Shown: positions 16,659-64,000 of the stretch, piece by piece
Numbering within the stretch: the first letter of the stretch is position 1
Layout of the letters: the number at the start of each line of letters is the position of its first letter
Notes under the pieces: generated by a model
Told to the model about the DNA's origin: nothing
Database searches by the model: none
The model's input: the letters and a program-made list of their open reading frames with translations, nothing else
Translations under genes and position numbers: made by a program
Assembly (NCBI RefSeq): GCF_900005615.1
Contig: NZ_LN832559.1
Coordinates: forward strand, 2,619,001-2,683,000
Length of the DNA: 64,000 nt
Reading direction: 5' to 3'
From: Paracoccus aminovorans
GTDB lineage: Bacteria > Pseudomonadota > Alphaproteobacteria > Rhodobacterales > Rhodobacteraceae

Positions 16659-17444
16659 ATGAGAGCACTTCAGATCGCGGCGACCGGGATGAGCGCGCAG
16701 CAGATGCGCGTCGAGGTCATCTCGAACAACCTCGCCAACATGTCGACCACGGGCTACAACCCGCGGCGGGCGGAATTCGCCGACCTGCAATACCAGCAGG
16801 TGACCCGCCCCGGCACGCTGACCGCCACCAATGGCGCCATGGTCCCGGCCGGCGTGCAGCTGGGCCTGGGCGTACGCCCGGCCAGCGTCGCGGTCATGCT
16901 GTCCCAGGGTTCGCTGACCCAGACCAACGGCGACCTGGACGTGGCCGTGGACGGCGCCGGCTATCTCGAGGTGACGCTGCCTTCGGGCATCTCGGCCTAT
17001 ACGCGGGACGGCAGTCTGAAACGCTCGCCCGAAGGGCAGGTGGTGACCTCCGAGGGCTATCCACTTGTCCCCGACATCACCATCCCCGAGGATGCCCGCA
17101 GCATCTCGATCAACCCCAATGGTGAAGTCTTCGCCTATTTCGACGACCGCGTCGAACCCGAGAACCTGGGCCAGATCACCCTGGCCAGCTTCGTCAACGA
17201 AAAGGGGCTGGAAGCGACGGGCTCGAACCTGTTCCTGGAAACCGTGGCCTCGGGGCCGCCGCGCGTCGCGACACCGGGCCAGGAAGGGCTGGGCACGATC
17301 CGCGGCGGTTTCCTGGAAGAAAGCGCGGTAGATCCGGTGCGCGAAATCGCAGAGCTGATCAAGGCACAGCGCGGCTACGAACTGAACTCCAAGGTGATCA
17401 CCGCCGCCGACCAGATGCTGGGCACCACGGTGCAGGTGCGATGA
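16659..17444 (+). CDS. flgG: flagellar basal-body rod protein FlgG
   Basis: Distal rod protein of 261 residues. Hallmarks are ALQIAATGMSAQQMRVEVIS, the NNLANMSTTGYNPRRAEFAD segment typical of FlgG (not FlgF), and the carboxy-terminal EIAELIKAQRGYELNSKVI. ATG 16659 is chosen over a GTG 15 bases upstream because the family starts MRALQ. The stop overlaps flgA by four bases. Confidence 0.94.
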   Translation: MRALQIAATGMSAQQMRVEVISNNLANMSTTGYNPRRAEFADLQYQQVTRPGTLTATNGAMVPAGVQLGLGVRPASVAVMLSQGSLTQTNGDLDVAVDGAGYLEVTLPSGISAYTRDGSLKRSPEGQVVTSEGYPLVPDITIPEDARSISINPNGEVFAYFDDRVEPENLGQITLASFVNEKGLEATGSNLFLETVASGPPRVATPGQEGLGTIRGGFLEESAVDPVREIAELIKAQRGYELNSKVITAADQMLGTTVQVR

Positions 17445-17860
17445 TGCGGTATCTTGCACTTCTTTTGCTGTTGCTGCCGCATTCGGCGCTGGCCGGCGCC
17501 GCGCTGGCCACGCGCACTTTGCCGGCCGGGACCGTGCTCGCGCCCGGGGATGTCGTCCTGGCCGCGGACCAGGACGGCGGCTTGCAGGACGTGTCGCAGG
17601 TCGTCGGCCAACAGTTGCGGGTCATGGTCTACGAGGGACGCCGCATCGACCCCTCGTTCCTGTCGGCGCCGATGCTGGTCGGCCGCAACCAGATCGTCAC
17701 TATCACCTATCAGAAATCCGCCCTGCGGATCGAGGCCGAGGGGCGCGCGCTCTCTGCCGGAAGCGTCGGCCAGATCATCCGCGTCATGAACAACGCGTCG
17801 CGGGTCACCGTCTCGGGGCGCGTCGCCGCCGACGGGACCGTGATCGTCGCGCAGAACTGA
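17441..17860 (+). CDS. flgA: flagellar P-ring assembly chaperone FlgA
   Basis: Periplasmic chaperone for P-ring formation, 139 residues, at the short end for the family. A signal peptide ends at about residue 18 (HSALAG). The SAF-like domain shows GTVLAPGDVVLA and the carboxy-terminal GQIIRVMNNASRVTVSGRVA typical of FlgA. The ATG overlaps the flgG stop. FlgI, whose assembly it supports, is not in the window. Confidence 0.9.
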   Translation: MMRYLALLLLLLPHSALAGAALATRTLPAGTVLAPGDVVLAADQDGGLQDVSQVVGQQLRVMVYEGRRIDPSFLSAPMLVGRNQIVTITYQKSALRIEAEGRALSAGSVGQIIRVMNNASRVTVSGRVAADGTVIVAQN

Positions 17861-17870
17861 AGGACTTGCC

Positions 17871-18623
17871 ATGCCCTACCCCATGCAATCGCGCCCCTTG
17901 GTCCTGCTAGGCGCTGCGACCCTCGCCCTTTCGTTGACGGCCTGCGGCCGGGTTTCGCAGGTCGGGCGGGTGCCCGAAATGACCCAGCCCGAAAGCAGCG
18001 TCGAATTCCAGGCCATGACCTCGCAAGGTTATGGTTCGCAAGAACTGCCCGACCGGCCGGACAGCGCGGCCTCGCTGTGGACGACGTCGCAGAATTCGCT
18101 GGTCGCGGACCGGCGGGCCGCCAATCGCGGCGACATCCTGACCGTGGTGATCGAGATCGACGACCGCGCCGAGATCCAGAACAGTTCGGGCCGCAGCCGC
18201 AGTTCGGCCGACAAGGTCAGCATTCCGTCGCTGGCCGGCCTGCCGCAGCGCATCGACGAAATCCTGCCCGAAGGCGCCAGCATGGACGAGCTGGCCGAGG
18301 CCAAGGCCTCTTCCAGCTACAAGGGCAGCGGCAATATTTCGCGCCGCGACAAGCTGACGCTGCGCGTCGCCGCCACCGTGGTCGACCGATTGCCGAACGG
18401 GGTGCTGCGCATCCAGGGCACGCAAGAGGTGCGTGTGAACTACGAGGTGCGCGAATTGACGGTCAGCGGATTCGTGCGGCCCTCGGACATCGGGCGCCGC
18501 AACGAAATCTCATATGATCGCATTGCGGGCGCGCGCATCTCCTACGGCGGCCGAGGCCATATCAGCGACGTGCAGCAGCCGCGCTATGGCCAGCAGATTG
18601 CCGACATCGTGCTGCCCTATTGA
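17871..18623 (+). CDS. flgH: flagellar L-ring protein FlgH (lipoprotein)
   Basis: Outer-membrane L-ring subunit of 250 residues. A lipobox LSLTAC puts the lipidated cysteine at about residue 25. Family motifs include SLWTTSQNSLVADRRAANRG, ILTVVIEIDDRAEIQNSSGR and the carboxy-terminal IADIVLPY. It follows flgA by ten bases and precedes fliL by nine. Confidence 0.93.
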   Translation: MPYPMQSRPLVLLGAATLALSLTACGRVSQVGRVPEMTQPESSVEFQAMTSQGYGSQELPDRPDSAASLWTTSQNSLVADRRAANRGDILTVVIEIDDRAEIQNSSGRSRSSADKVSIPSLAGLPQRIDEILPEGASMDELAEAKASSSYKGSGNISRRDKLTLRVAATVVDRLPNGVLRIQGTQEVRVNYEVRELTVSGFVRPSDIGRRNEISYDRIAGARISYGGRGHISDVQQPRYGQQIADIVLPY

Positions 18624-18632
18624 GGTGAATGC

Positions 18633-19202
18633 GTGAAAAAGATCCTGCTGATCATTGTTCCCTTGCTCGCCTTCATCGCCGGCGCGGTGGGGGGCGACAT
18701 GCTGCACGCCGGCAAGCCGGCCACGGCGACCGAGACCGCGCCTGGCGCCGAAGCAGCTGAAAAAGCCGAGACCGCCGATGTCGGCGCCCATGGCCAAGAG
18801 GCCGAAGCAGAGGCCGAAGATGGCCATGGCGCCAAGCCTCAGGGTGGGCACGGCGCCGAAGTCGCAAAGGACGATTCCGCGCTGGACTGGTTCAAGTTTC
18901 CGACCCAGTTCTTCGTGCCGATCCTGCGCAACGGCACGCCCACGGCGATCATGGTGCTGTCGCTGACAGTGGAAATGCCGGCCTCGGCCCGGCCCGAGAT
19001 CGAAGCGCAGGAGCATCGCCTGCGCGACGCTCTGCTGAATGCCCTGATGATCGAAGCCAACACCGGGGGCTTCGAAGGCAATTTTACCTCGGATCCGGCG
19101 CAGCAGCGCCTGCGCGCCGCCTTGTTGGCCGCTGCGCAAAACGCTGCAGGTCCCAGCGTCAAGCGGATCCTGATCGAAGACATCGGCCGGCAGCAGCAAT
19201 GA
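18633..19202 (+). CDS. fliL: FliL-like flagellar basal-body-associated protein
   Basis: A 189-residue protein with a single amino-terminal membrane segment (about 4-22), an unusually long Ala/Glu/His-rich periplasmic linker (about 28-85) and a carboxy-terminal domain that resembles FliL. Start is GTG 18633 after GAGGTGA. FliL supports stator function near the motor. Similarity is weaker than for the rod proteins, so the name rests partly on position at the end of the operon. No further flagellar gene follows. Confidence 0.72.
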   Translation: MKKILLIIVPLLAFIAGAVGGDMLHAGKPATATETAPGAEAAEKAETADVGAHGQEAEAEAEDGHGAKPQGGHGAEVAKDDSALDWFKFPTQFFVPILRNGTPTAIMVLSLTVEMPASARPEIEAQEHRLRDALLNALMIEANTGGFEGNFTSDPAQQRLRAALLAAAQNAAGPSVKRILIEDIGRQQQ

Positions 19203-52724: not shown

Positions 52725-54083
52725 CTAGGAAAACAGCGCGGCGGCGATGGCGTCGCGATGGGCAGCCAAGGCCGCCGCGGCCGCGACCACGGCGACCAGA
52801 GCGGCGACCAGATCGTGGCGGGGGTCCCAGCAGTCGTGCCGCCGGGCCAGCCAGACCGTGACCGGATAGCAGAACACCTGCGACAACGCCTGGCCGACCA
52901 GCAGCCCCGGCAGGCCGTAGAGAAAGGCACCCCCCGCGACCAGGCCGAAATAGATCGCCGCACGCGCGGACTGCATGACGAAGAAGCCGCGCGAATCCCC
53001 CGCCGCCAGGGCCGAATATTCATAGCTGATGGGGATGACCTGCAGCATCTGGATGCAGGCGATCGCGACCAGGATGCCCCCTGCGCTGGTATAGCGCGCG
53101 TCGTAGAGCAGATCGACCAGCGGCGGGCCGACCCAGGCCAGGACGATGGCGGCGAACAGCAGCAGCGCGGTCAGGCCGGCGCGGGTGCGCGCCAGGGTGC
53201 GACGATGATGCGCGCCCTCGGAGGGCGGATGCTCGCGATACATCGGGATGAACAGCCGACTGCCGATCGAGGAGCCCAGCATCGCCGGCACCGTCGCCAG
53301 GAACAGGCCGATGTTGTAGATGCCCAGCTGGTGCAGCGTCAGCACCCGGCCCAGGATGATGCGGTCGCCCTGGAACAGCAGGAAGCCGCAGATGGTGCTG
53401 AAAAAGATCCACTTGCCGAACTTCATCACCTCGGCCCGGGCCTCGGGCTCCATGCGGAAGCGGTTGCGGTGGCCGGGCAGGAACAGCCGGAACATCAGCA
53501 GCTGCGCGAAGGCACCCAGCACGTTCCCCCAGACCAAGGCCCAGACCGATTGCAGGATCAGCGCCGCGGCGACGGTGATCAGGATGCCGATCAGCTGGTT
53601 GCCGAGCTCGATCACGGTCAGCCGGCCCAGCTGCAGGTGGCGCGCGGCGCTGTCGATGCGGGTCGGCAGGAAGCCGCCCACGATCATCGAGGTGGCGGCG
53701 ACGGGGAATACCCAGCTGAACAGCGGCGCGTCGTAGAACAGCGACAGCGGCCAGGCCATGGCCATCGCGGCCAGGAAAATCAGGAAGCCGCGGATGATCT
53801 TCAGCGTCCAGATCGTGTCGAGGAAATCCGGGTCGTCGCCCCGCTTGCTCTGCATGATCGAGGGGCCGAAGCCCATGTCGCTGAACATGCTCAGCCCGAT
53901 CAGAAAGCTGGTCACCAGCGCCATCAACCCGAAGTCGTCCGGGCTGAGGATGCGGGTCAGGATCAGGTTCGAGCCCAGCCGCATGATCTGGCCCAGGCCG
54001 AAATTGGCCATGGTCCAGGCGCTGCTGCCCAGGGCACGCGAGGCAAAGGCCTTGCGCGGCGCCTGCGGGACGGTCTCGCTCAT
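52725..54083 (-). CDS. polysaccharide flippase (Wzx/MOP family)
   Basis: A 452-residue integral membrane protein with about 12-14 hydrophobic segments and the amino-terminal pattern SAWTMANFGLGQIMRLGSNLIL, LTRILSPDDFGLMALV of PST/Wzx-type flippases that move undecaprenyl-linked repeat units across the inner membrane. Its ATG overlaps the stop of the Wzz-like gene. A Wzy polymerase is not in the window. Confidence 0.88.
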   Translation of the reverse strand: MSETVPQAPRKAFASRALGSSAWTMANFGLGQIMRLGSNLILTRILSPDDFGLMALVTSFLIGLSMFSDMGFGPSIMQSKRGDDPDFLDTIWTLKIIRGFLIFLAAMAMAWPLSLFYDAPLFSWVFPVAATSMIVGGFLPTRIDSAARHLQLGRLTVIELGNQLIGILITVAAALILQSVWALVWGNVLGAFAQLLMFRLFLPGHRNRFRMEPEARAEVMKFGKWIFFSTICGFLLFQGDRIILGRVLTLHQLGIYNIGLFLATVPAMLGSSIGSRLFIPMYREHPPSEGAHHRRTLARTRAGLTALLLFAAIVLAWVGPPLVDLLYDARYTSAGGILVAIACIQMLQVIPISYEYSALAAGDSRGFFVMQSARAAIYFGLVAGGAFLYGLPGLLVGQALSQVFCYPVTVWLARRHDCWDPRHDLVAALVAVVAAAAALAAHRDAIAAALFS

Positions 54084-55588
54084 CAACCCATCCCGTCGGT
54101 GAGGGTGGAGACGACGCCGGGCGACGGCAGGCCGGGGATCCGGCCCAGCAGCCACAGCGCCACGAACAGACCCACCGTCAGCAGGACCAACAGGTAGATG
54201 TTGCGCCGCCGCCGGGCGCGCAGATCCTTTTCGGACAGGCGATAGGGCAAGGCGATCACCGGCCGGGTGCCGGTCGCCCGCGCGAACTGGTCCGTGCGGC
54301 GCAGGACCGGGTTCAGCATTTCCAGCAGAAAGGCCACGGTCAGCGCCAGCGCCAGGCTGCCGCCCACCCCCATCACCGCGCTTTTCTTGCGGTTGGACAG
54401 CGCCGGGTATTCCGGCGGCAGGGCGCGCTCCAGCAGCACAAAACGCTCGGTCTGGTCGTTCTCCATCAGCATCTGCTGGGTTTCGACCTGGGCCAGCTGG
54501 CGCGAGATCTCGTTGTAGCGGTCCTGCAGCCGACGCTGATCGCGCTGCATGGTCTCCAGCTCGCGGGTGACCTGGGGTGCGCGGGCGCGGGCCTGGTCGA
54601 TCTCGGCCCGGCGCAAGGCGAAGCCCGCCTTCTGCTGGTTCAGCTGCGCCAGCTGGGCGTCGATCAGTTCGGCCTGGCGGCGGACCACGTCCGAGGCGCC
54701 GCTGCCGCCGCCGCTGTTCAGCCGCTCGAGGTTGTCCTCGAGCCGCTTGATCTCGGGGTGGTTGGGGGCCAACGTGCGACGCGCCTGCGCCAGCTCGATC
54801 TCGGCCGAGCGGATCTGCTGCACCAGCGAGGCCGAGGGCCGCACCTCGGTCCCCGACCCGCCCGCTTCCAGCGAAAGCCGCTCGCGCTGCAGGTCCATGA
54901 GGTTGCGGTCCATCGTGGTCTCCAGCTCGGTCAGCTGGGCCAGTTCGGTCTGCAGGAAGGCCTGCGACGACGGCAGGGCGTCTTCGTTGCGGGCGCTGTA
55001 TTCGACCACCTTGCGCTCTTGGATGGCGATCTGCTCGTTCAGCCGCGCCTCTTCGCTGCGCAGGTAGTCCTGCGATTCCCGGATGCGGACCTTGCGGTTC
55101 TCGCGGTCGCGGTTGACCACGCTGTCGGCGAAGTCGTTGGCGATGGCGGCGGCCATGGCCGGCGTCTCGGCCTGCGAGGTGATGACGATTGCGGCCAACG
55201 CCAGCCGCGAATCGACCGAGACGCCGGGCGCGGTGATGCTTTCGATGCGCGTCGAATTGCGCAATGCCGCCAGCTTGTCGGTCTCGCTGAGGCCGTGGCT
55301 GTCGGCGAACAGCCCCAGCCGCTCGATCACGTCGCGCAGGTTGGCCCGCGCCATCAGCCGCTGCTCGATCAGCTGCACCCGACGCGAGGCCGGCAGCGAG
55401 CTGTCGGCGCCCTGGTCCATCACCGCCGGCATGTCGAGCTGGATCACCGCCGAGGCCTGATAGACCCGGGGCGAGGAGACGATCAGATAAAACGAAATCA
55501 GCACACCCAGGATCAGGATCGTCATCACCAGCGGCAGCCGCCGCCAGATCAGAGAGATCAGGTCCTGCAAGGATTGAATCGGTCCCAA
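54083..55588 (-). CDS. polysaccharide chain-length determinant (Wzz/GumC-like)
   Basis: A 501-residue co-polymerase with a first membrane helix (about 18-38), a large periplasmic region with extended coiled coils (about 160-390) and a second helix near 410 followed by a third hydrophobic stretch near 465-485. The Wzz domain (SSPRVYQASAVIQLD, TAPGVSVDSRLALAAIVIT) is clear. It is separate from the ATPase encoded upstream. Overlaps the flippase by one base at ATGA. Confidence 0.87.
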   Translation of the reverse strand: MGPIQSLQDLISLIWRRLPLVMTILILGVLISFYLIVSSPRVYQASAVIQLDMPAVMDQGADSSLPASRRVQLIEQRLMARANLRDVIERLGLFADSHGLSETDKLAALRNSTRIESITAPGVSVDSRLALAAIVITSQAETPAMAAAIANDFADSVVNRDRENRKVRIRESQDYLRSEEARLNEQIAIQERKVVEYSARNEDALPSSQAFLQTELAQLTELETTMDRNLMDLQRERLSLEAGGSGTEVRPSASLVQQIRSAEIELAQARRTLAPNHPEIKRLEDNLERLNSGGGSGASDVVRRQAELIDAQLAQLNQQKAGFALRRAEIDQARARAPQVTRELETMQRDQRRLQDRYNEISRQLAQVETQQMLMENDQTERFVLLERALPPEYPALSNRKKSAVMGVGGSLALALTVAFLLEMLNPVLRRTDQFARATGTRPVIALPYRLSEKDLRARRRRNIYLLVLLTVGLFVALWLLGRIPGLPSPGVVSTLTDGMG

Positions 55589-55619: not shown

Positions 55620-56357
55620 TCAATCTTCTGACTTGTTCAGCACCACGCCCATCACCGGGGGCATGCCGACCAGCAGTCGCTCGGCCTCGGCCATGTCGGC
55701 GGCGGTGCCCTTGCGGCCGTCGGCGACCAGCAGCAGCGCATCGGCCAGCGGCAGCGCCGCCAGCGCGGCGTCCTCCGCCAGCAGGGCGGCGGTGTCCAGG
55801 ATCACGATCTCGGCCGGATGCAGCTCGTGCAGCCGCTGCATCGCCTGCGCCAGCGTCTCGTCCTGCAGGATCTCGGCGGCTTCGGCCTCGGGCCGTTCAG
55901 GCGCCAGCACGGCCAGGTTCGGCGCCTCGTCCACGCAGACGACCAGTTCGTCCAGCTCGGTGCCCGCGCGCAGCACCGGCACCACCGGGGCGCAGCCCGG
56001 GATGCCCAGCTGGCGCGCCACGCCCGGGTTGCCGAGGTCGAGATCGACCAGCGCCACCCGCGTATGCGGCTGCCGCGCCAGGGCGAGCGACAGGTTCACC
56101 GCGACGAAGGTGCCGCCGGCGCCGGGCGTGACCGGCACCACGGCCAGCTTGCTCCAGCCGCGGTTGCGCATCTCGTGCAGGATGCGGGTGCGCAGCAGCG
56201 AGAAACGCTGCGCGATGATCCGGGCATGTTTCGCGTCCGAGGCCGCCATCGCGGCCTCGCGCCGGACGAACCTGCTGGAGACCTTGCCGCGCCGGTCCTC
56301 GGGCGCAAGGCCTTGCTCCGGCGCCTTGTCCGGTGTCTTCTCTGTCGCGGGCTTCAA
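55620..56357 (-). CDS. CpsD/CapB-like ATPase, degenerate Walker A
   Basis: A protein of about 245 residues resembling the cytoplasmic half of bacterial tyrosine autokinases that pair with Wzz proteins. MinD/ParA-like features are present (FVAVNLSLALA, VALVDLDLGNPGVARQLG for Walker A', ADALLLVADGRKG), but the P-loop reads TPGAGGTF instead of the usual GKT/S form, so the catalytic lysine is absent, and the predicted protein has no tyrosine. The start is uncertain: TTG 56357 (AGAGG upstream) or ATG 56249. It lies 31 bases upstream of the Wzz-like gene. Confidence 0.78.
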   Translation of the reverse strand: MKPATEKTPDKAPEQGLAPEDRRGKVSSRFVRREAAMAASDAKHARIIAQRFSLLRTRILHEMRNRGWSKLAVVPVTPGAGGTFVAVNLSLALARQPHTRVALVDLDLGNPGVARQLGIPGCAPVVPVLRAGTELDELVVCVDEAPNLAVLAPERPEAEAAEILQDETLAQAMQRLHELHPAEIVILDTAALLAEDAALAALPLADALLLVADGRKGTAADMAEAERLLVGMPPVMGVVLNKSED

Positions 56358-56645
56358 ACCTGTGGCCCCTCTGCCTCTGGTGGAATGCGGCCGCCTGCAA
56401 GGGCGCCGCCTGCCGTGACTTTCATGGCAGCGGCATGGTAGCGTCCGCGCCATGAAGGCCACAACCGAAAACACGTCCGATCACGAGAATGCGCCGCATT
56501 TCGCGGGCTTGCCTGACCATTTATACAGGCCCCGCCGCGCAGCCGCCGCAGGCCCCGCGCCGGCTGCCGGGGGCCGGGGGCACCCGCGCCGCGATCCCGG
56601 CCGGCCGAATCGGCCTTTCCGCCCCGAAGCCGCGAAAGCGAAAAG

Positions 56646-57473
56646 ATGACGCCCTGCACCATCATCCTGCCGGCCCATGACGAAGCCGGCTATATCGACT
56701 CCTGCCTCGACCACCTGCTGGCCCAGGATCACGACGGCCCGGTCGCGGTGGTGGTGGTGGCCAACGGCTGCACCGACGATACCGCCGCCCGGGCCCGCGC
56801 GCAGGCGCCGCGCTTTGCCGCCCGCGGCTGGTCGCTGCGGGTCGAGGAACTGACCCAGGGCGGCAAGATCGGCGCGCTGAACCATGGCGACGCCTGCGCC
56901 GGGCCCGGCGTGCGCCTGTATCTGGACGCCGACATCCATATGGGACCGCGGCTGCTGTCCGGCATCATGCGGGCGCTGGACGGAAACGAGCCGCGCTATG
57001 CCGGCGGGCGGCTGGTCGTCGCACCGGCGCGCAGTCCGGTCTCGCGCGCCTATGCCCGGTTCTGGCAGAAGCTGCCCTTCGTCGCCCAGGGCGTCACCGG
57101 CGCCGGGCTGTTCGCGGTGAACCAGGCCGGCCGGGCGCGCTGGGGCGCCTTTCCGCAGATCATCTCGGACGACACCTTCGCCCGGCTGCAGTTTTCGGAA
57201 TCCGAGCGCTTCCTGGTGGACGAACCCTATCGATGGCCGCTGGTCGAGGGTTTTTCGCCCCTGGTGCGGGTGCGCCGGCGCCAGGACATGGGCGTGGCCG
57301 AGATCGCAAGGCTCTTTCCCGAGCTGCCGCCGCGGCAGGGCCATGTCCGGCCCAGCCGCGGTGAATTGCTGCGGCTGGCAGTCCGCGACCCCGTCGGCTT
57401 CGCCACCTATGCCGCCGTCGCGCTGGCGGTCCGGCTGGGCCGCAACCGGCAGGGCTGGGCGCGGGGCCGCTGA
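56646..57473 (+). CDS. glycosyltransferase family 2
   Basis: A 275-residue GT-A enzyme with TIILPAHDEAGYIDSCLDHL, the NGCTDDT nucleotide-sugar motif, metal-binding YLDADIHM and the carboxy-terminal catalytic stretch ISDDTFARLQF. No membrane segments in the catalytic part; the end is weakly hydrophobic. It diverges from the CpsD-like gene and probably adds one sugar in exopolysaccharide synthesis. Donor unknown. Confidence 0.86.
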   Translation: MTPCTIILPAHDEAGYIDSCLDHLLAQDHDGPVAVVVVANGCTDDTAARARAQAPRFAARGWSLRVEELTQGGKIGALNHGDACAGPGVRLYLDADIHMGPRLLSGIMRALDGNEPRYAGGRLVVAPARSPVSRAYARFWQKLPFVAQGVTGAGLFAVNQAGRARWGAFPQIISDDTFARLQFSESERFLVDEPYRWPLVEGFSPLVRVRRRQDMGVAEIARLFPELPPRQGHVRPSRGELLRLAVRDPVGFATYAAVALAVRLGRNRQGWARGR

Positions 57474-57981: not shown

Positions 57982-58683
57982 ATGCGGCACAGTTCAGATT
58001 TCGATATCGAGTCCATTGACTCGGTGCTGCAATCCCCCGCCACTGGAACCAGCATCGGGGAGCCCACGGGTATCAGTTCATTTTATGCGCGCTTCCTGAA
58101 ACGGCCGATGGACATCCTGGCCGTATTGCTGGCCGCGCCGATCGTCCTGCCGCTGGTGCTGCTGCTGGCGCTCGTCATCCTCTGGCATGGCGAGAAGCCC
58201 TTTTATACGCAATTGCGCGTCGGCCGTTCGGGCCGCAGCTTCCGGCTGTGGAAGCTGCGCACGATGGTCGAGGATGCGGATCTGCGCCTGACCGAATACC
58301 TGGCCGGCAATCCCGAAGCCCGGGCCGAGTGGGACTCGACCCAGAAGCTGAAGAACGACCCGCGCATCACCAAGACCGGGCATTTCCTGCGCAAGACCTC
58401 GCTGGACGAGCTGCCGCAGCTGTGGAACGTGTTCCGCGGCGACATGAGCATCGTCGGCCCGCGTCCGATGATGCTGGAGCAGGCGCAGCTTTACCCGGGT
58501 GCGGATTATTATCACCTGCGTCCCGGCGTGACCGGGCTGTGGCAGATCTCGGATCGGAACGACAGCACCTTCGCGGCCCGCGCCACCTTCGACGCGCGTT
58601 ATGCGGCCGATCTCAGCCTGACCGGGGACGTGACCATCGTCGCCAAGACGGTGGGCGTGGTCCTGCGCTGCACGGGCTACTGA
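57982..58683 (+). CDS. undecaprenyl-phosphate sugar phosphotransferase (ExoY/WbaP-like)
   Basis: Initiates repeat-unit synthesis by moving a hexose-1-phosphate to undecaprenyl phosphate. The 233-residue protein has an amino-terminal soluble tail (1-38), one strong hydrophobic segment (about 44-68) and the catalytic domain: KLRTM, TGHFLRKTSLDELPQLWNV, GDMSIVGPRPMM and RPGVTGLWQ. It is the short ExoY form without the extra membrane region of full WbaP. Donor (often galactose or glucose) is not readable. Confidence 0.92.
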   Translation: MRHSSDFDIESIDSVLQSPATGTSIGEPTGISSFYARFLKRPMDILAVLLAAPIVLPLVLLLALVILWHGEKPFYTQLRVGRSGRSFRLWKLRTMVEDADLRLTEYLAGNPEARAEWDSTQKLKNDPRITKTGHFLRKTSLDELPQLWNVFRGDMSIVGPRPMMLEQAQLYPGADYYHLRPGVTGLWQISDRNDSTFAARATFDARYAADLSLTGDVTIVAKTVGVVLRCTGY

Positions 58684-58923: not shown

Positions 58924-59062
58924 AGAAAAATCGAATCGCCATACAAACTTTCATCTGACGGCGGCTACTACTGCATATCCGCTTATTCTTGAGCAAAAAT
59001 CAGCGTAATCCAGCCGAAATGCCGCAAGGTCGCGGCGTTTCCTCTTGGATAAGGAGCCGCAA

Positions 59063-60268
59063 TTGCGAATCGGCTATCTGGTCAACACCTATCCGCGTCC
59101 CTCGCACAGCTTCATCCGGCGCGAGATCGCCGCGCTGGAGCAGCGGGGCTTTCAGGTCCATCGCTTCGCCATGCGCGGCGATGCGGCGGCGCTGACCGAT
59201 CCCGCCGACCTGGCCGAGCATGACCGGACCGAGCGGGTGCTGGACACCGGCGGCAAGCGGCTGCTGGCCGGCTTGGCACGGCAGGCGCTGGCCGCGCCAG
59301 GCCGTTTCCAGGCGGCGTTCAAGTCCGCTCGCGCCCGCGCGCGCGCCGGCGAATCCGGGCTGGCGCGGCAGATCATCTATATGGCCGAAGGCGCCCATGT
59401 CGCCGCCCGCGCCCGCGAACTGGGGCTGCGGCATCTGCACGCGCATTTCGGCACCAATTCGGCCCGCGTCGCCGGCTATGCACGGCTCTTCGGCGGCCCG
59501 CCCTTCAGCTTCACGGTGCATGGCCCCGAGGAGTTCGACAACGTCCAGCCGCTGGACCTGGGCGGCAAGCTGGCCCTGGCCGATTTCTGCGTCACCGTCA
59601 GCAGCTATGGCCGGTCGCAGATGTATCGCTGGGCCGCCGCCGGCGACTGGGCCAAGGTCCGGGTCGTGCATTGCGGACTGGACCTCGACCGCTGGGCCGA
59701 GCCCGCGCCCCTGCCCCCCGGTCCCTTCCACATGGTCGCCGTCGGCCGCTTCGCCGAGCAGAAGGGTTTCGGCCTGCTGATCCGCGGCTTCGCCCACGCC
59801 TGGCGGCAAAACCCGGCGCTGCGGCTGTCGCTGGTCGGAGATGGCGAGTTGCGGCCGCAGATCGAAAGCCAGATCGCCGCCGCTGGCATGGGCGAGGCCG
59901 TGTCGCTGCTGGGCTGGCAGAACGAAGCCGGCGTCCGCGCCGCGATGAACGCCGCCCATGCCCTGGTCACCCCCAGTTTCGCCGAGGGCCTGCCGGTGGT
60001 GATCATGGAGGCCATGGCCTGCGCCCGCCCGGTCATCGCCACCTATATCGCCGGCATCCCCGAACTGGTTCGGCCCGGGATCGAGGGCTGGCTGGTCCCC
60101 GCGGGCGACGATGCCGCCCTGGCCCAGGCGATGCTTGAAGCCGCCGAAACCCAGCCCGAGACTCTGGCCGCCATGGGCGCCTCGGCCCGCACCCGCGTCG
60201 CCGAACGCCACGACATCCGGGAATCGGCGGACCGCCTGTCGGCGCTGTTCAGCCGCGCCACAGGCTGA
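59063..60268 (+). CDS. glycosyltransferase family 4
   Basis: A 401-residue GT-B enzyme for polysaccharide assembly. Amino-terminal acceptor domain begins RIGYLVNTYPRPSHSFIRRE; carboxy-terminal donor domain has VAVGRFAEQKGFGLLIRGF, VGDGELRPQIE and the E-x7-E motif TPSFAEGLPVVIMEAMACARPV. The start is TTG 59063, chosen because AAGGAG lies six bases ahead; a TTG 18 bases upstream is the alternative. The last 20 bases overlap the convergent phosphopantetheinyl transferase gene. Confidence 0.9.
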   Translation: MRIGYLVNTYPRPSHSFIRREIAALEQRGFQVHRFAMRGDAAALTDPADLAEHDRTERVLDTGGKRLLAGLARQALAAPGRFQAAFKSARARARAGESGLARQIIYMAEGAHVAARARELGLRHLHAHFGTNSARVAGYARLFGGPPFSFTVHGPEEFDNVQPLDLGGKLALADFCVTVSSYGRSQMYRWAAAGDWAKVRVVHCGLDLDRWAEPAPLPPGPFHMVAVGRFAEQKGFGLLIRGFAHAWRQNPALRLSLVGDGELRPQIESQIAAAGMGEAVSLLGWQNEAGVRAAMNAAHALVTPSFAEGLPVVIMEAMACARPVIATYIAGIPELVRPGIEGWLVPAGDDAALAQAMLEAAETQPETLAAMGASARTRVAERHDIRESADRLSALFSRATG

Positions 60269-60872
60269 GCGCCAGCCAGCAGCCCGCTGCGCGTCCCCAG
60301 CGCCCGCCGATCAGCCGCTCGCCCATGCAACCGCGAAAGCGGTCGCCGCGGATCACCACCGGCACCTCGCGAAAGTCCAGCATGCGCCCGGTCAGCGGAT
60401 ATTGCGCCTTGAACATCGCCTCCTTGGCACAAAATGCCAGCAGCGGCGGCAGGTCCGCGGCCATGCGAAAGGGCATTACCATCCCCGCCAGCCCCTCGGG
60501 CGGGTTGCGGTCGCTGGGTTCCAGATCGATGCCCAGGCTGGGGCCGCCCGGCGGCGCGGCGATGGCGATGCAGTAATCGCCGCCATGCGACAGGCTGGCG
60601 CGGATGCCCGCGGGCAGGTCGGGCTGGCGATCCGGCCGCATGGCGATGGGACGCGACTCCGGCAGCTCATGCCCCGCCTGGCGGATCGCCGCCCGCAAGA
60701 CTAGGCGTCCCAGCGCAAACTCGTGCCGCCGCTTCGGGACGGCACGGGCCATGGCTTCGGCCTCGGCCGGCAGCAGCGGCGCCGGCTCGGCCATAAGCGG
60801 CAACACGGCGCAACCATAGCCGACCGGCAGCAGGCCCCGCGCCAGGTCGCGCAGCGCTTCGGCTTCGCTCAC
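60249..60872 (-). CDS. 4'-phosphopantetheinyl transferase (EntD/Sfp superfamily)
   Basis: Loads the phosphopantetheine arm onto carrier domains, here presumably the NRPS upstream. The 207-residue protein has KRRHEFALGR, SLSHGGDYCIA, the Mg-binding GIDLE and the FCAKEAMFKAQYP signature, and resembles the EntD-type siderophore enzymes. GTG start overlaps the NRPS stop by four bases, so the two are coupled. Overlaps GT4 at the 3' end. Confidence 0.92.
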   Translation of the reverse strand: MSEAEALRDLARGLLPVGYGCAVLPLMAEPAPLLPAEAEAMARAVPKRRHEFALGRLVLRAAIRQAGHELPESRPIAMRPDRQPDLPAGIRASLSHGGDYCIAIAAPPGGPSLGIDLEPSDRNPPEGLAGMVMPFRMAADLPPLLAFCAKEAMFKAQYPLTGRMLDFREVPVVIRGDRFRGCMGERLIGGRWGRAAGCWLALSLWRG

Positions 60873-63800
60873 CGTCCGCCGCGCAATTGCGCGCGCAGCG
60901 CCCGGCGCTTGGCCATGGCATCGTCGCCGGCCGCCGCAGCCTCGGGCGCGGGCGCGGAAGCGGGCGAAGCCGCGGGGGCCACAGCCGCGGCCGCCACCGG
61001 CGTCACGGCCGGTGCCGCGGGCGACAGCGAGGCGATATGCTTCAGGAAATCAGCCATCACCGGGAAACGGAAAATATCCGTCACCCCCAACCGCGGCAGC
61101 GCCAGCCGGTCGCGCATCGTGCGATGCAGCTGGATCGCCAGCAGCGAATGGCCGCCGAGCGCGAAGAAATTGTCGCGCGGGCCGATCTGCGGCACGCCCA
61201 GGGTCTCGGCCCATAGCGCATGCACGGCCGCCGCCAGATCCTCGGTCGGCGCGGCATTGGCGGCGCCAGCCGCCGCGGCGGGGGCGGTCTCGACGACCGC
61301 CGCCGGCGCCACCCCCACCGCAGCCGAGACGACCGCACCCGGCACCGGCAGATGCTTGCGGTCGATCTTGCGGTTCGGGGTCAGCGGCATCCGGTCCAGC
61401 CGCACGATCCGGCCCGGCACCATATGCGCCGGCAGATGCGCCAGCAGCGCCTCGCGCAGCGCCTTTTCGGACAGCGACGGCTCGCCAGTGACATAGGCCA
61501 CCAGCCGCTTGTCGCCGGGCGCGTCCTCGCGAACCAGGGCCACCGCCTCGCGCACACCGGGCTGACCGGTCAGTTGCGCCTCGATCTCGCCCAGCTCGAT
61601 GCGGAAGCCGCGCAGCTTCACCTGATGGTCGGCCCGGCCCAGATAGTCCAGCCCGCCATCCTCGCGCCAGCGCACTAGGTCGCCGGTGCGATAGATGCGC
61701 GCGCCCCAGGGCGCGGCGCGATCCGCCGGCACGAAGGGATCCGGCCGGAACGCGCCCGAGGTCAGATCCTCGCGCTGCCAATAGCCGCGCGTCACGCCAT
61801 GGCCGCCGATCCACAGCTCGCCCTGCGCGCCCGGAGGCACCGGCACGCCGTCCGCGTCCAGCACATAAAGCTGGGTATTGGCGATGGGCCGGCCCAGCGT
61901 CACCTCGGCCGCATCGGTCAGGTCGGCGACGGTGGACCAGATCGTGGTCTCGGTCGGGCCGTACATGTTCAGCACCCGCGCCCGCGTCGCCGCCTTGATC
62001 TCGGCCAGCAGCGAGGGCGGCAGCGCCTCGCCGCCGACCATGACGCATTTCAGCCCCGCCATCGCCGCCGCCACCTGCGGGTCCGAAACCAGGATCCGCG
62101 CCATGCTGGGCGTGCATTGCAGATGCGTCACCTTCCAGCGCCGGATCTGCGCCGCGATCGAGAAATCGCCGTCCGCGGGCGCGGCGCCATGCGGGTTCAC
62201 CTCGGCCCGCAGCCGCGCCAGCATCGGGAAGCCGGCCATCACCTGCTCGGGGGCGATGCCATAGTCGATCAGGCAGGCGATCTCGCCCACGCCGATGGTC
62301 TTCAGCTGTTCGACCCGCGCGATGGCGTCGTCCATCGAACCGAACAGGCCCGAATCCTCGAAATAGCGCAGGAAGGCGAATTCCAGGATGCCGTCCAGCT
62401 CTTCCTCGGAGAGCGAGCCCAGGTCGATGGCCATGGGGTTGGTCATGCCCGCAGGCTTGCGGAAGGCGGGGAAATCCCAGGCATATTGCTTGACCAGCGC
62501 CGCCGCGCTGCGCAGGTAGTTCTTCATCGGCTCGCGGGCGATCTCGCGCGCGGTCTCGCGGTCCTCGGCCAGGCAGGTGTGCAGCATCAGCGTGACGGTG
62601 AAATGCGCCGGATCATGCCCGACCGAGCGCAGCGCCGCGTGATAATCCTTGATCCGCGCCGCCACCGTTTCGATGCTCTGGCCCAGCAAATGGGTCAGCA
62701 CGTTCATGCCCAGCCGTCCGGCCTCGACCCAGGTTTCCGGGTTGCCGGCCACGGTCAGCCACAGCGGCAGTTCCTTCTGCACCGGGCGCGGCTGGGTCAC
62801 GACGCCGAAGCTGCCGCCGCCGGCGCGCGGGAAATCCACGCTTTCGCCGCGCCACAGCCGGCGCAGCTGTTCGATGCCTTCGATCATCGCCGCCTTGTTG
62901 TTCGGCGGCGCGTTTTCCGGGCGCAGCACGAAATCGTCCGGCTGCCAGCCCGAGGCGATGGCTAGGCCCGCCCGCCCCGAGGTCAGGTTGTCGATCACAG
63001 CCCATTCCTCGGCCACCCGGGCCGGATGGTGCAGCGGCAGCACGCAGCTGCCGGCGCGGACCGAGATGTTTCTGGTCACCGCCGCCACCGCCGCGCCCGA
63101 CACCGCCGGGTTCGGATAGGGGCCGCCGAAGGCGTGGAAATGCCGCTCGGGCGTATAGACGGCGACGAAGCCGTTCTGGTCGGCAAAACGCGCCCCCTCC
63201 AGCAGCAGTTGGTATTTCTTCGGCCCCGGCCCGTCGTCGTTGCCCCAATAGAACAGGCTGAAGTCCATGCCGCCGGCAACCTCGCGCCGCGGCTGCGCCG
63301 GGGCCGAGGACACCGCCAGCCGCGATTCCTCGCCCGCGATCACCAGCTTGAGCCCGCGCGCCAGCGACCAGAAGATCTCCAGCACCGAAATGTCGAAGCT
63401 GAGGCTGGTCACCGCCAGCCAGGCATCGCCCTCGGCATGCGGGATCACCGCATCCATGCCGGCGAAGAAATTGGCGACGTTGCGATGCTCGACCATCACC
63501 CCCTTGGGCAGGCCGGTCGAGCCCGAGGTATAGATCAGATAGGCCAGGTGCTGCGGCCCGACCGTGCCGACCGGCGCCGCCACCATGCCATGCGGCAGGT
63601 CCGAGGGAATGGTCACCACCTGCGCGCCATGCGCCGGCAGCCTGTCGGCCAGACCGTCCTGGACCAGCACCACGCGCGCGCCGGAATCCTGGAGGTAAAG
63701 CTCGACCCGCTCGGCGGGATAATCGGGGTCCAGCGGCACATAGGCGCCCCCCGCCTTCCAGATCGCCAGCGCGCCGATCACCAGTTCGGGCGAGCGTTTC

Positions 63801-64000
63801 GCGAACAGGCCCACCGGCTGATCGGGACCGACACCCATCGCCACCAGCTTTTCGGCCAGCGCATTGGCGGCGCGGTCCAGCTGGCCGCGGGTCAGGCCGT
63901 GGTCCTCGAAGGCAAGGGCCGATGCATCCGGGTTCTCGGCGGCCTTTTCCGCGATCAGCTCGTGGATGCAGGCCAGCCGCACCTCGGCCTGCGTGGCGTT
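60869..64000 (-). CDS. NRPS module with luciferase-like monooxygenase embedded in the adenylation domain (partial)
   Basis: The frame is open to the right edge, so the beginning (probably a condensation domain) is missing. Seen in order: A-domain start (HELIAEKAAENPDASAL), A3 YTSGSTGLPKGV, A4 FDISVLEIFW; then an inserted flavin-dependent luciferase-like domain of about 370 residues (MDFSLFYWGNDDGPGPKKYQ, YTPERHFHAFGGPYPNP, GRAGLAIASGWQPDDFVL) of the MupA/Atu3671 type; then A5 YGPTETTIWS, A7 YRTGDLVRW, A8 KLRGFRIELGEIE and A10 PNRKIDRKHLP; a carrier domain DNFFALGGHSLLAIQLH; and an Ala/Pro-rich tail without a thioesterase. By eye, the specificity positions read DILQ-M-G-M-I-W-K, close to glycine codes. 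Product unknown. Confidence 0.93.
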   Translation of the reverse strand, partial: NATQAEVRLACIHELIAEKAAENPDASALAFEDHGLTRGQLDRAANALAEKLVAMGVGPDQPVGLFAKRSPELVIGALAIWKAGGAYVPLDPDYPAERVELYLQDSGARVVLVQDGLADRLPAHGAQVVTIPSDLPHGMVAAPVGTVGPQHLAYLIYTSGSTGLPKGVMVEHRNVANFFAGMDAVIPHAEGDAWLAVTSLSFDISVLEIFWSLARGLKLVIAGEESRLAVSSAPAQPRREVAGGMDFSLFYWGNDDGPGPKKYQLLLEGARFADQNGFVAVYTPERHFHAFGGPYPNPAVSGAAVAAVTRNISVRAGSCVLPLHHPARVAEEWAVIDNLTSGRAGLAIASGWQPDDFVLRPENAPPNNKAAMIEGIEQLRRLWRGESVDFPRAGGGSFGVVTQPRPVQKELPLWLTVAGNPETWVEAGRLGMNVLTHLLGQSIETVAARIKDYHAALRSVGHDPAHFTVTLMLHTCLAEDRETAREIAREPMKNYLRSAAALVKQYAWDFPAFRKPAGMTNPMAIDLGSLSEEELDGILEFAFLRYFEDSGLFGSMDDAIARVEQLKTIGVGEIACLIDYGIAPEQVMAGFPMLARLRAEVNPHGAAPADGDFSIAAQIRRWKVTHLQCTPSMARILVSDPQVAAAMAGLKCVMVGGEALPPSLLAEIKAATRARVLNMYGPTETTIWSTVADLTDAAEVTLGRPIANTQLYVLDADGVPVPPGAQGELWIGGHGVTRGYWQREDLTSGAFRPDPFVPADRAAPWGARIYRTGDLVRWREDGGLDYLGRADHQVKLRGFRIELGEIEAQLTGQPGVREAVALVREDAPGDKRLVAYVTGEPSLSEKALREALLAHLPAHMVPGRIVRLDRMPLTPNRKIDRKHLPVPGAVVSAAVGVAPAAVVETAPAAAAGAANAAPTEDLAAAVHALWAETLGVPQIGPRDNFFALGGHSLLAIQLHRTMRDRLALPRLGVTDIFRFPVMADFLKHIASLSPAAPAVTPVAAAAVAPAASPASAPAPEAAAAGDDAMAKRRALRAQLRGGR

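Follow-up and report, generated by a model that had tools for sequence, protein, structure and literature searches.

A nonribosomal peptide synthetase (NRPS) gene crossing the right edge of a 64,000-nucleotide stretch of the Paracoccus aminovorans genome (contig NZ_LN832559.1, positions 2,619,001 to 2,683,000; the whole stretch is called the window below) appears to encode the loading module of a two-protein assembly line, in which a polyketide synthase (PKS) comes next, and this line lies within an exopolysaccharide (EPS) locus. The NRPS is made up of a formyltransferase (FT) domain, a probable condensation-domain remnant, an adenylation (A) domain split by a flavin mononucleotide (FMN)-dependent luciferase-like monooxygenase (MOx), and a carrier domain. 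We give an even chance to the whole reading offered here, a module that would formylate and oxidise glycine and feed a PKS whose product would decorate a polysaccharide; it is the most likely single reading, roughly balanced by all others together.

The window belongs to a 4.04-Mb genome, and the closest named homologues of the NRPS protein are from Paracoccus. In the genome sequence, the full gene occupies 60869-65527 on the minus strand, in window numbering continued past the edge, and encodes 1552 residues from an ATG start with no internal stop. The NRPS and the genes of its operon are as follows:

60869..64000, minus strand: NRPS, in-window part, running on to 65527 past the edge
64703-65527 (beyond the edge), minus strand: FT domain of the NRPS (Pfam)
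63968..64000 in the window and to 64702 beyond the edge, minus strand: probable condensation-domain remnant, residues ~276-520 (profile search), without HHxxxDG
63317..63952, minus strand: A domain, N-terminal piece to motif A4, residues 526-737 (Pfam)
62207..63262, minus strand: inserted MOx of the MupA/Atu3671 group, residues 756-1107 (TIGR04020; PuwE, 6ket)
61538..62155, minus strand: A domain, piece from shortly before motif A5 onward, residues 1125-1330 (TIGR01733)
61367..61588, minus strand: AMP-binding_C subdomain, residues 1314-1387 (Pfam)
61034..61228, minus strand: peptidyl carrier protein, residues 1434-1498, with Ser1461 (Pfam; Ser in 80/80)
60249..60872, minus strand: 4'-phosphopantetheinyl transferase (PPTase), in a 4-base overlap with the NRPS
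65524-66498 (beyond the edge), minus strand: core glycosyltransferase (GT), family 2, between PKS and NRPS
66501-72785 (beyond the edge; L006:6502-12786), minus strand: PKS, by Pfam ketosynthase (KS)-acyltransferase (AT)-ketoreductase (KR)-dehydratase (DH)-acyl carrier protein (ACP)-thioesterase (TE)

Pfam matches in the NRPS run in the order Formyl_trans_N (residues 59-162), Formyl_trans_C (20.6 bits, slightly under its cut-off of 21.1), AMP-binding split around Bac_luciferase, AMP-binding_C and PP-binding. Among 262 relatives recovered from a species-genome collection by a pattern scan, the 80 best were retained, and almost all of these are titled Rhodobacteraceae or its genera; the alignment of 80 NRPSs comprises P0001 and 79 of those 80 loci, L043 being left out for a frame below 1300 residues. 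FT residues N90, H92 and D128, carrier residue S1461, and A-domain residues D712, I713, L716, Q1137, G1165, M1188 and W1197 are invariant throughout. A truncated or frameshifted NRPS, the concern attached to the original prediction, is excluded now that the sequence right of position 64000 has been obtained: the frame is fully open in the genome, and most relatives have long frames, the exceptions being a split copy in genome G030 and fragments at contig ends. That prediction, made from the window alone, had described an A domain interrupted by a MupA/Atu3671-type monooxygenase, a module lacking a thioesterase, and an Sfp/EntD-type PPTase translationally coupled downstream. Pfam finds the two-piece A domain and no TE in the NRPS protein, and the 4-base overlap with the PPTase agrees with the proposed coupling. 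As a view of the module the description was accurate for the in-window frame but incomplete, as this frame is only the C-terminal two thirds, leaving the window at its right edge, and the FT and condensation remnant precede it.

The N terminus of the NRPS resembles formyltransferases, namely 10-formyltetrahydrofolate dehydrogenase, ArnA, Fmt and LgrA (PDB matches include LgrA), and the invariant N-H-D set is what we take to be the formyltransferase catalytic triad. An FT with this triad at the NRPS N terminus, the mark of an initiation module of LgrA type, is thus found in 80/80 proteins. LgrA, the formylating initiation module of linear gramicidin, has the order FT-A-thiolation domain; it shares with the present protein the N-terminal FT and FT sequence similarity, whereas the present protein has a probable condensation remnant separating FT from A, a MOx within its A domain, and a glycine-like code. 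The roughly 245 residues between FT and A have no Pfam match, to condensation domains or otherwise. A profile of this linker from 50 relatives does match condensation domains, among them those of Txo1 and McyB, with E values as low as 1.1e-14. The match is strong over the last 70 positions, where the profile takes in the condensation-adenylation linker and the first part of the A domain, and weak in the middle (EntF, E 0.001). None of the 80 proteins has the condensation motif HHxxxDG in its first 700 residues, and a looser form of the pattern occurs in one. By these sequence comparisons the linker is probably a condensation domain whose N-terminal lobe the FT has replaced; a novel domain was considered and set aside in view of these profile matches to condensation domains, strong at the end of the linker and weak in its middle. 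With that lobe replaced, and no functional condensation domain before A by either Pfam or motif, the module would be restricted to chain initiation. In the alignment of a second copy, from genome G662 (L170), most of the linker is missing; the annotation of Paracoccus marcusii CP157 makes the FT a separate gene that overlaps the remainder. Two other condensation-domain loci in the P. aminovorans genome (G000:C1:404272-405504 and 2888242-2889267) lie outside this system.

The insert matches TIGR04020 over its full length (positions 1-341 of 341; 465.6 bits against a cut-off of 244.45), confirming the family originally proposed and answering, though only indirectly, the second concern attached to that prediction, a lack of the family's conserved flavin-site residues; the closest solved structure is PuwE (6ket, 335 bits). 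It sits between FDISVLEIF (A4) and NMYGPTETTIW (A5), both nearly invariant in the 80 aligned proteins, and the MOx stretch is the best-conserved region of the whole NRPS. In the A domain, I1196 is kept in 79/80 proteins, and Met at position 1163 (59 proteins) gives way to Leu in 20 and to Phe in one. Column reading of the alignment gives the code DILQMGMIWK, which resembles DILQLGLIWK, presumably a glycine code; the substrate code therefore appears glycine-like, the resemblance the original prediction had noted. A MOx inserted between A4 and A5 is a known kind of arrangement, with precedents in MtaG and MelG, which we take to be the gene names of the glycine modules for myxothiazol and melithiazol. 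Excerpts from two articles describe these modules: the MOx within the glycine A domain puts a hydroxyl group on the alpha carbon, and cleavage of the amide follows (PMC11342130, PMC10204066), and the insertion site is between A4 and A5 (PMC10204066). MOx-bearing corallorazine-like clusters likewise carry the MOx within a glycine A domain, according to the excerpts. The same two articles, in the parts consulted, place the flavin monooxygenase of solanimycin B between A8 and A9, with the alpha-hydroxyglycine retained. MupA, of the same TIGR04020 family, is described in its excerpt as hydroxylating an ACP-bound beta-keto thioester at the alpha position while accepting neither a free pantetheine substrate nor the beta-hydroxy analogue, and its cluster yielded no flavin reductase (PMC10952193). 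MupA and OocM are free-standing enzymes; here the monooxygenase is embedded in the A domain, with PuwE its nearest solved structure.

Because MupA, the myxothiazol and melithiazol MOx and the solanimycin monooxygenase all hydroxylate the carbon alpha to the thioester, hydroxylation at the alpha carbon would by analogy be likelier here than N-hydroxylation. Oxidation of the tethered substrate, as first suggested, is thus kept as a working idea, but its example of an N-hydroxylated glycine does not fit the relatives with described activity, at least in the excerpts of those descriptions. N-hydroxylation of formylated glycine would give a hydroxamate, a hadacidin-like unit, and a metal-binding product; formyl and N-hydroxy units do occur together in known siderophores. 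We regard this outcome as very improbable, given the carbon-directed chemistry of the relatives and the annotated plasmid stretches discussed below, which hold no gene named as a siderophore receptor, though L172 has a TolC protein and L174 a type I secretion system. A different fate is suggested by MtaG and MelG, where, as described, alpha-hydroxyglycine is cleaved: alpha-hydroxylated formyl-glycine would be an unstable carbinolamide, breaking down to formamide and a glyoxylyl thioester that the PKS extends, the formyl group being merely a leaving aid. As far as descriptions allow comparison, the MtaG and MelG modules share the A4-A5 MOx but are last in their line, followed by a terminal thioesterase and yielding a terminal amide. 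Here the FT comes first, no TE is present in the protein, HHxxxDG is missing from 80/80, and the module starts the line with a PKS next. Solanimycin B is moreover described, in the parts consulted, without cleavage, and a conserved FT would be wasteful, so that cleavage seems improbable.

The minus-strand operon has the order PKS, glycosyltransferase, NRPS, PPTase, with 4-base overlaps between GT and NRPS, between NRPS and PPTase, and also between PKS and GT if the GT starts at a GTG. A homologue of the core GT lies immediately upstream of the NRPS in 80/80 loci. The upstream PKS ends in a TE, and the residues assigned to KS, AT, KR, DH, ACP and TE catalysis are invariant in an alignment of 74 PKSs longer than 1800 residues (L137 and L138 included, nine loci with shorter frames left out). 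DH after KR is an unusual order for a cis-AT PKS; it is shared by the PKSs of L137, L138 and Aminobacter. What can be read directly from the DNA is the set of domains, an intact FT and carrier, the PKS catalytic residues, the glycine-like code, the operon, and the linkage and co-occurrence described below; the activity of each domain, the order of formylation and hydroxylation, a single extension round and the final acceptor we infer. In the proposed pathway the A domain would activate glycine and load the carrier protein, the FT would formylate the glycine nitrogen, and the embedded MOx would add a hydroxyl group at the alpha carbon of the carrier-bound glycine, using reduced FMN from a reductase encoded elsewhere. 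Since the module has no working condensation domain and so starts the chain, the N-formyl-alpha-hydroxyglycyl starter would pass to the KS of the PKS, which would add malonate, with reduction by KR and dehydration by DH; one extension round would give roughly a 4-formamido-4-hydroxy-crotonyl unit. The TE would release or transfer this unit, which would end as an acyl decoration on a Wzx/Wzy exopolysaccharide. The last step is proposed because the assembly line tracks the Wzx/Wzy pathway, whose genes at this locus are as follows:

72888-74555 (beyond the edge), minus strand: Wzy-like gene (Wzy_C 26.6 bits, under the cut-off of 31.7)
74245-75198 (beyond the edge), plus strand: WecG, occurring once in its own genome, at this locus
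59045..60268, plus strand: GT4 glycosyltransferase, EpsE-like (under the equivalog cut-off)
57982..58683, plus strand: initiating polyprenyl-phosphate sugar transferase (under the cut-offs of full-length models)
56646..57473, plus strand: family-2 glycosyltransferase (weak match; Pfam of a marine homologue)
55620..56474, minus strand: polysaccharide tyrosine autokinase (under cut-offs)
54083..55588, minus strand: Wzc/Wzz-type chain-length determinant (under cut-offs)
52725..54155, minus strand: Wzx-type flippase (under cut-offs; the marine homologue passes the Pfam cut-off)

Flippase, polymerase-like protein, chain-length determinant, kinase, initiating transferase and glycosyltransferases together make this a locus of Wzx/Wzy type, several scores falling under curated cut-offs. 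The gene set is like that of known EpsA/EpsE-like loci; what is unusual is the presence of a PKS-NRPS among such genes. A holdfast locus was rejected, since the HfsE model, with a cut-off of 750 bits, gives the sugar transferase 84 and the remaining genes are closer to Eps genes. Neighbourhoods were searched with eight EPS gene queries in the 63 of 80 loci that hold at least 26 kb. At least one homologue was present in 61/63 and seven or eight in 36/63; with two broad GT queries removed, at least one of the six remaining genes was present in 57/63, and WecG or Wzy in 50/63.

Co-occurrence was examined in 149 Rhodobacteraceae genomes, nearly all of different genera. First searches found the NRPS in 53 genomes and Wzy in 59, with both in 51 (Fisher 1e-28, phylogeny ignored), and WecG in 58, accompanying the NRPS in 52 (Fisher 4e-32, phylogeny likewise ignored). 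FT-profile matches added G503, G515 (decayed), and G442 and G565 (fragments) to the NRPS count. In the final tally NRPS and Wzy occur together in 54 genomes, NRPS alone in three (G442, G516, G562), Wzy alone in five, and neither in 87; for WecG the corresponding figures are 55, two, three and 89. The G442 and G516 assemblies are 85% and 84% complete. Of the 51 NRPS-Wzy pairs from the first searches, 41 lie within 30 kb; two share a contig at distances of 178 and 420 kb, and eight are split between contigs, some of which are small. In the two distant cases, G506 and G491, the PKS-NRPS is still beside Wzc and kinase genes. Within the genus Paracoccus (37 genomes), Wzy is found in 15/15 NRPS genomes versus 6/22 others, three of these matches strong and three weak (Fisher 6e-6). 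G013 was dropped as an NRPS genome from this genus count, its match spanning the MOx part only at 46% identity. The five Wzy-only genomes in the family sample have distant Wzy matches, with E values of 1.8e-143 or weaker; G536, which has the NRPS, also shows 8e-134.

These patterns bear on a further possibility, that the same loading module and PKS make a free small molecule, perhaps with a sugar added by the core GT, that serves as a signal, chelator or antibiotic, and merely share an island with EPS genes. Conservation of the TE triad in 74 PKSs would suit such a product, as would the NRPS-PKS pairs without nearby EPS homologues in L137, L138 and the divergent G562. Two NRPS-less Paracoccus EPS loci (L155, L156) yielded no core GT homologue, and the available excerpt of one article treats the cluster as a secondary-metabolite cluster (PMC5014874). 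Co-occurrence with one Wzy subfamily is, however, nearly one-to-one, and all five Wzy-only genomes carry, in the 20 kb examined, a GT that matches the core GT best among the queries (33-36% identity), adjoining Wzy in L142, L143 and L145; furthermore, the linkage recurs in another bacterial order with a different gene order. A free product is therefore a real but rather unlikely alternative. A fuller statement of the decoration reading, in which the PKS-NRPS line is a fixed part of the EPS pathway, its formylated, alpha-hydroxylated glycine-polyketide acyl group is placed on the polysaccharide, and the operon GT serves the polymer rather than a free metabolite, we hold to be plausible at somewhat short of an even chance.

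The recurrence was seen on plasmids. Of 28 matching records in the plasmid collection, 15 were listed and six, none of them from Streptomyces or Burkholderia, examined, and four Hyphomicrobiales plasmids, from Aminobacter, Shinella, Rhizobium and Neorhizobium, repeat the NRPS-EPS linkage in a different gene order. Those of Aminobacter and Shinella have an FT NRPS, an opposite-strand PKS and a PPTase amid annotated flippase and glycosyltransferases, to which annotation adds an O-antigen ligase and polysaccharide export in Aminobacter, and a WecB/TagA/CpsF transferase and a polyprenyl glycosylphosphotransferase in Shinella; in neither annotated record does a glycosyltransferase stand between PKS and NRPS. 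In Rhizobium BG6 and Neorhizobium SOG26, records without gene annotation, tblastn finds flippase, PKS, NRPS, PPTase, WecG and GT2. In a class-level sample of 385 genomes, 11 exceed the TIGR04020 cut-off, and six of these lie outside Rhodobacteraceae. In the five of these six that were read, L137 and L138 have an FT NRPS beside a KS-AT-KR-DH-ACP-TE PKS, and L139, L140 and L117 show other contexts.

Natural variants offer a second view of the pathway. Genome G503 keeps the operon and the EPS locus, with an NRPS of 1114 residues in which the FT triad is intact and the A domain, with the code DILQLGLIWK, is uninterrupted. Its PKS, of 1763 residues, has no DH match and lacks the KR catalytic residues by eye and by pattern, while FT, A, carrier, KS, AT and TE motifs and the core GT are kept. 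This joint loss of MOx, DH and KR residues, a single case, fits one pathway with a simpler product. The C terminus of the P. aminovorans NRPS (residues ~1535-1552) is a basic tail (MAKRRALRAQL), docking-peptide-like by eye, and the G503 protein ends in a similar tail. Genome G515 (L169:4690-8016) also has no MOx and keeps DH and the EPS genes; it was rejected as a second clean MOx-less variant and is read as a decayed copy, since it has lost the FT triad and the carrier serine and shows a truncated KS match.

Several observations weigh against the decoration reading. No product is known for the assembly line, and no acyltransferase for attaching the unit was identified. The substrate of MupA is beta-keto, not beta-hydroxy, and a glycyl thioester has no beta-keto group. 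L138 carries Phe in place of the FT His; it and L137, both from other families, show, within 19 kb, no homologue of any EPS gene tried with Rhodobacteraceae queries, and the queries used on the two unannotated plasmid records recover only PKS and NRPS in L137. Within the aligned set, L073 and L080 have none of the eight EPS homologues within about 10 kb, and G562 lacks both Wzy and WecG. The co-occurrence statistics ignore phylogeny and have no unrelated control gene. As the PKS-NRPS of G506 and G491 lies beside other EPS genes, the two systems are not fully separated there, and inheritance as an island is possible. Finally, the decayed G515 lost its MOx yet kept its DH, which leaves the joint loss in G503 a single case.

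Other observations concern the surrounding genes. Three proteins (L060:17508-18443, L060:18440-20953 and L028:20067-20840) contain a GHSL block, look like SGNH hydrolases by eye and have no Pfam match. Homologues occur in 51, 57 and 51 further loci, respectively, and no such frame was seen at the corresponding place in the window; these proteins may act as esterases on a polysaccharide decoration. Two repeat-rich, calcium-binding-like proteins (RTX-like by eye; L006:15238-16878 and 17055-19025) adjoin WecG and have homologues in several Paracoccus loci. L082, a contig titled Nocardioides marinus (an actinobacterium), carries a locus of the roseobacter type (51% identity) surrounded by EPS homologues, and is probably from a mislabelled or contaminated assembly.

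The roseobacter cluster, like the A4-A5 MOx insertion, is of a kind already known; Martens et al. 2007 is the source cited for it in a later description. An excerpt of that description has PKS, glycosyl transferase, NRPS and PPTase together as a cluster conserved in roseobacters with its product unidentified, and mentions neither the FT-A(MOx) architecture nor a link to polysaccharide (PMC5014874). Such a link is not stated for this cluster in the excerpts of the literature found, nor do those surveyed describe an FT and condensation-remnant loading module with an embedded MOx close to a polysaccharide pathway. The G503 variant provides a natural comparison for the contributions of MOx and DH. 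If the assembly line does decorate a surface polysaccharide, searches for free metabolites in culture extracts would miss its product, and the polymer would be the place to look. Thiotemplate chemistry would then be tied to exopolysaccharides in a large bacterial group, the FT profile being present in 141/394 sampled Rhodobacteraceae genomes.

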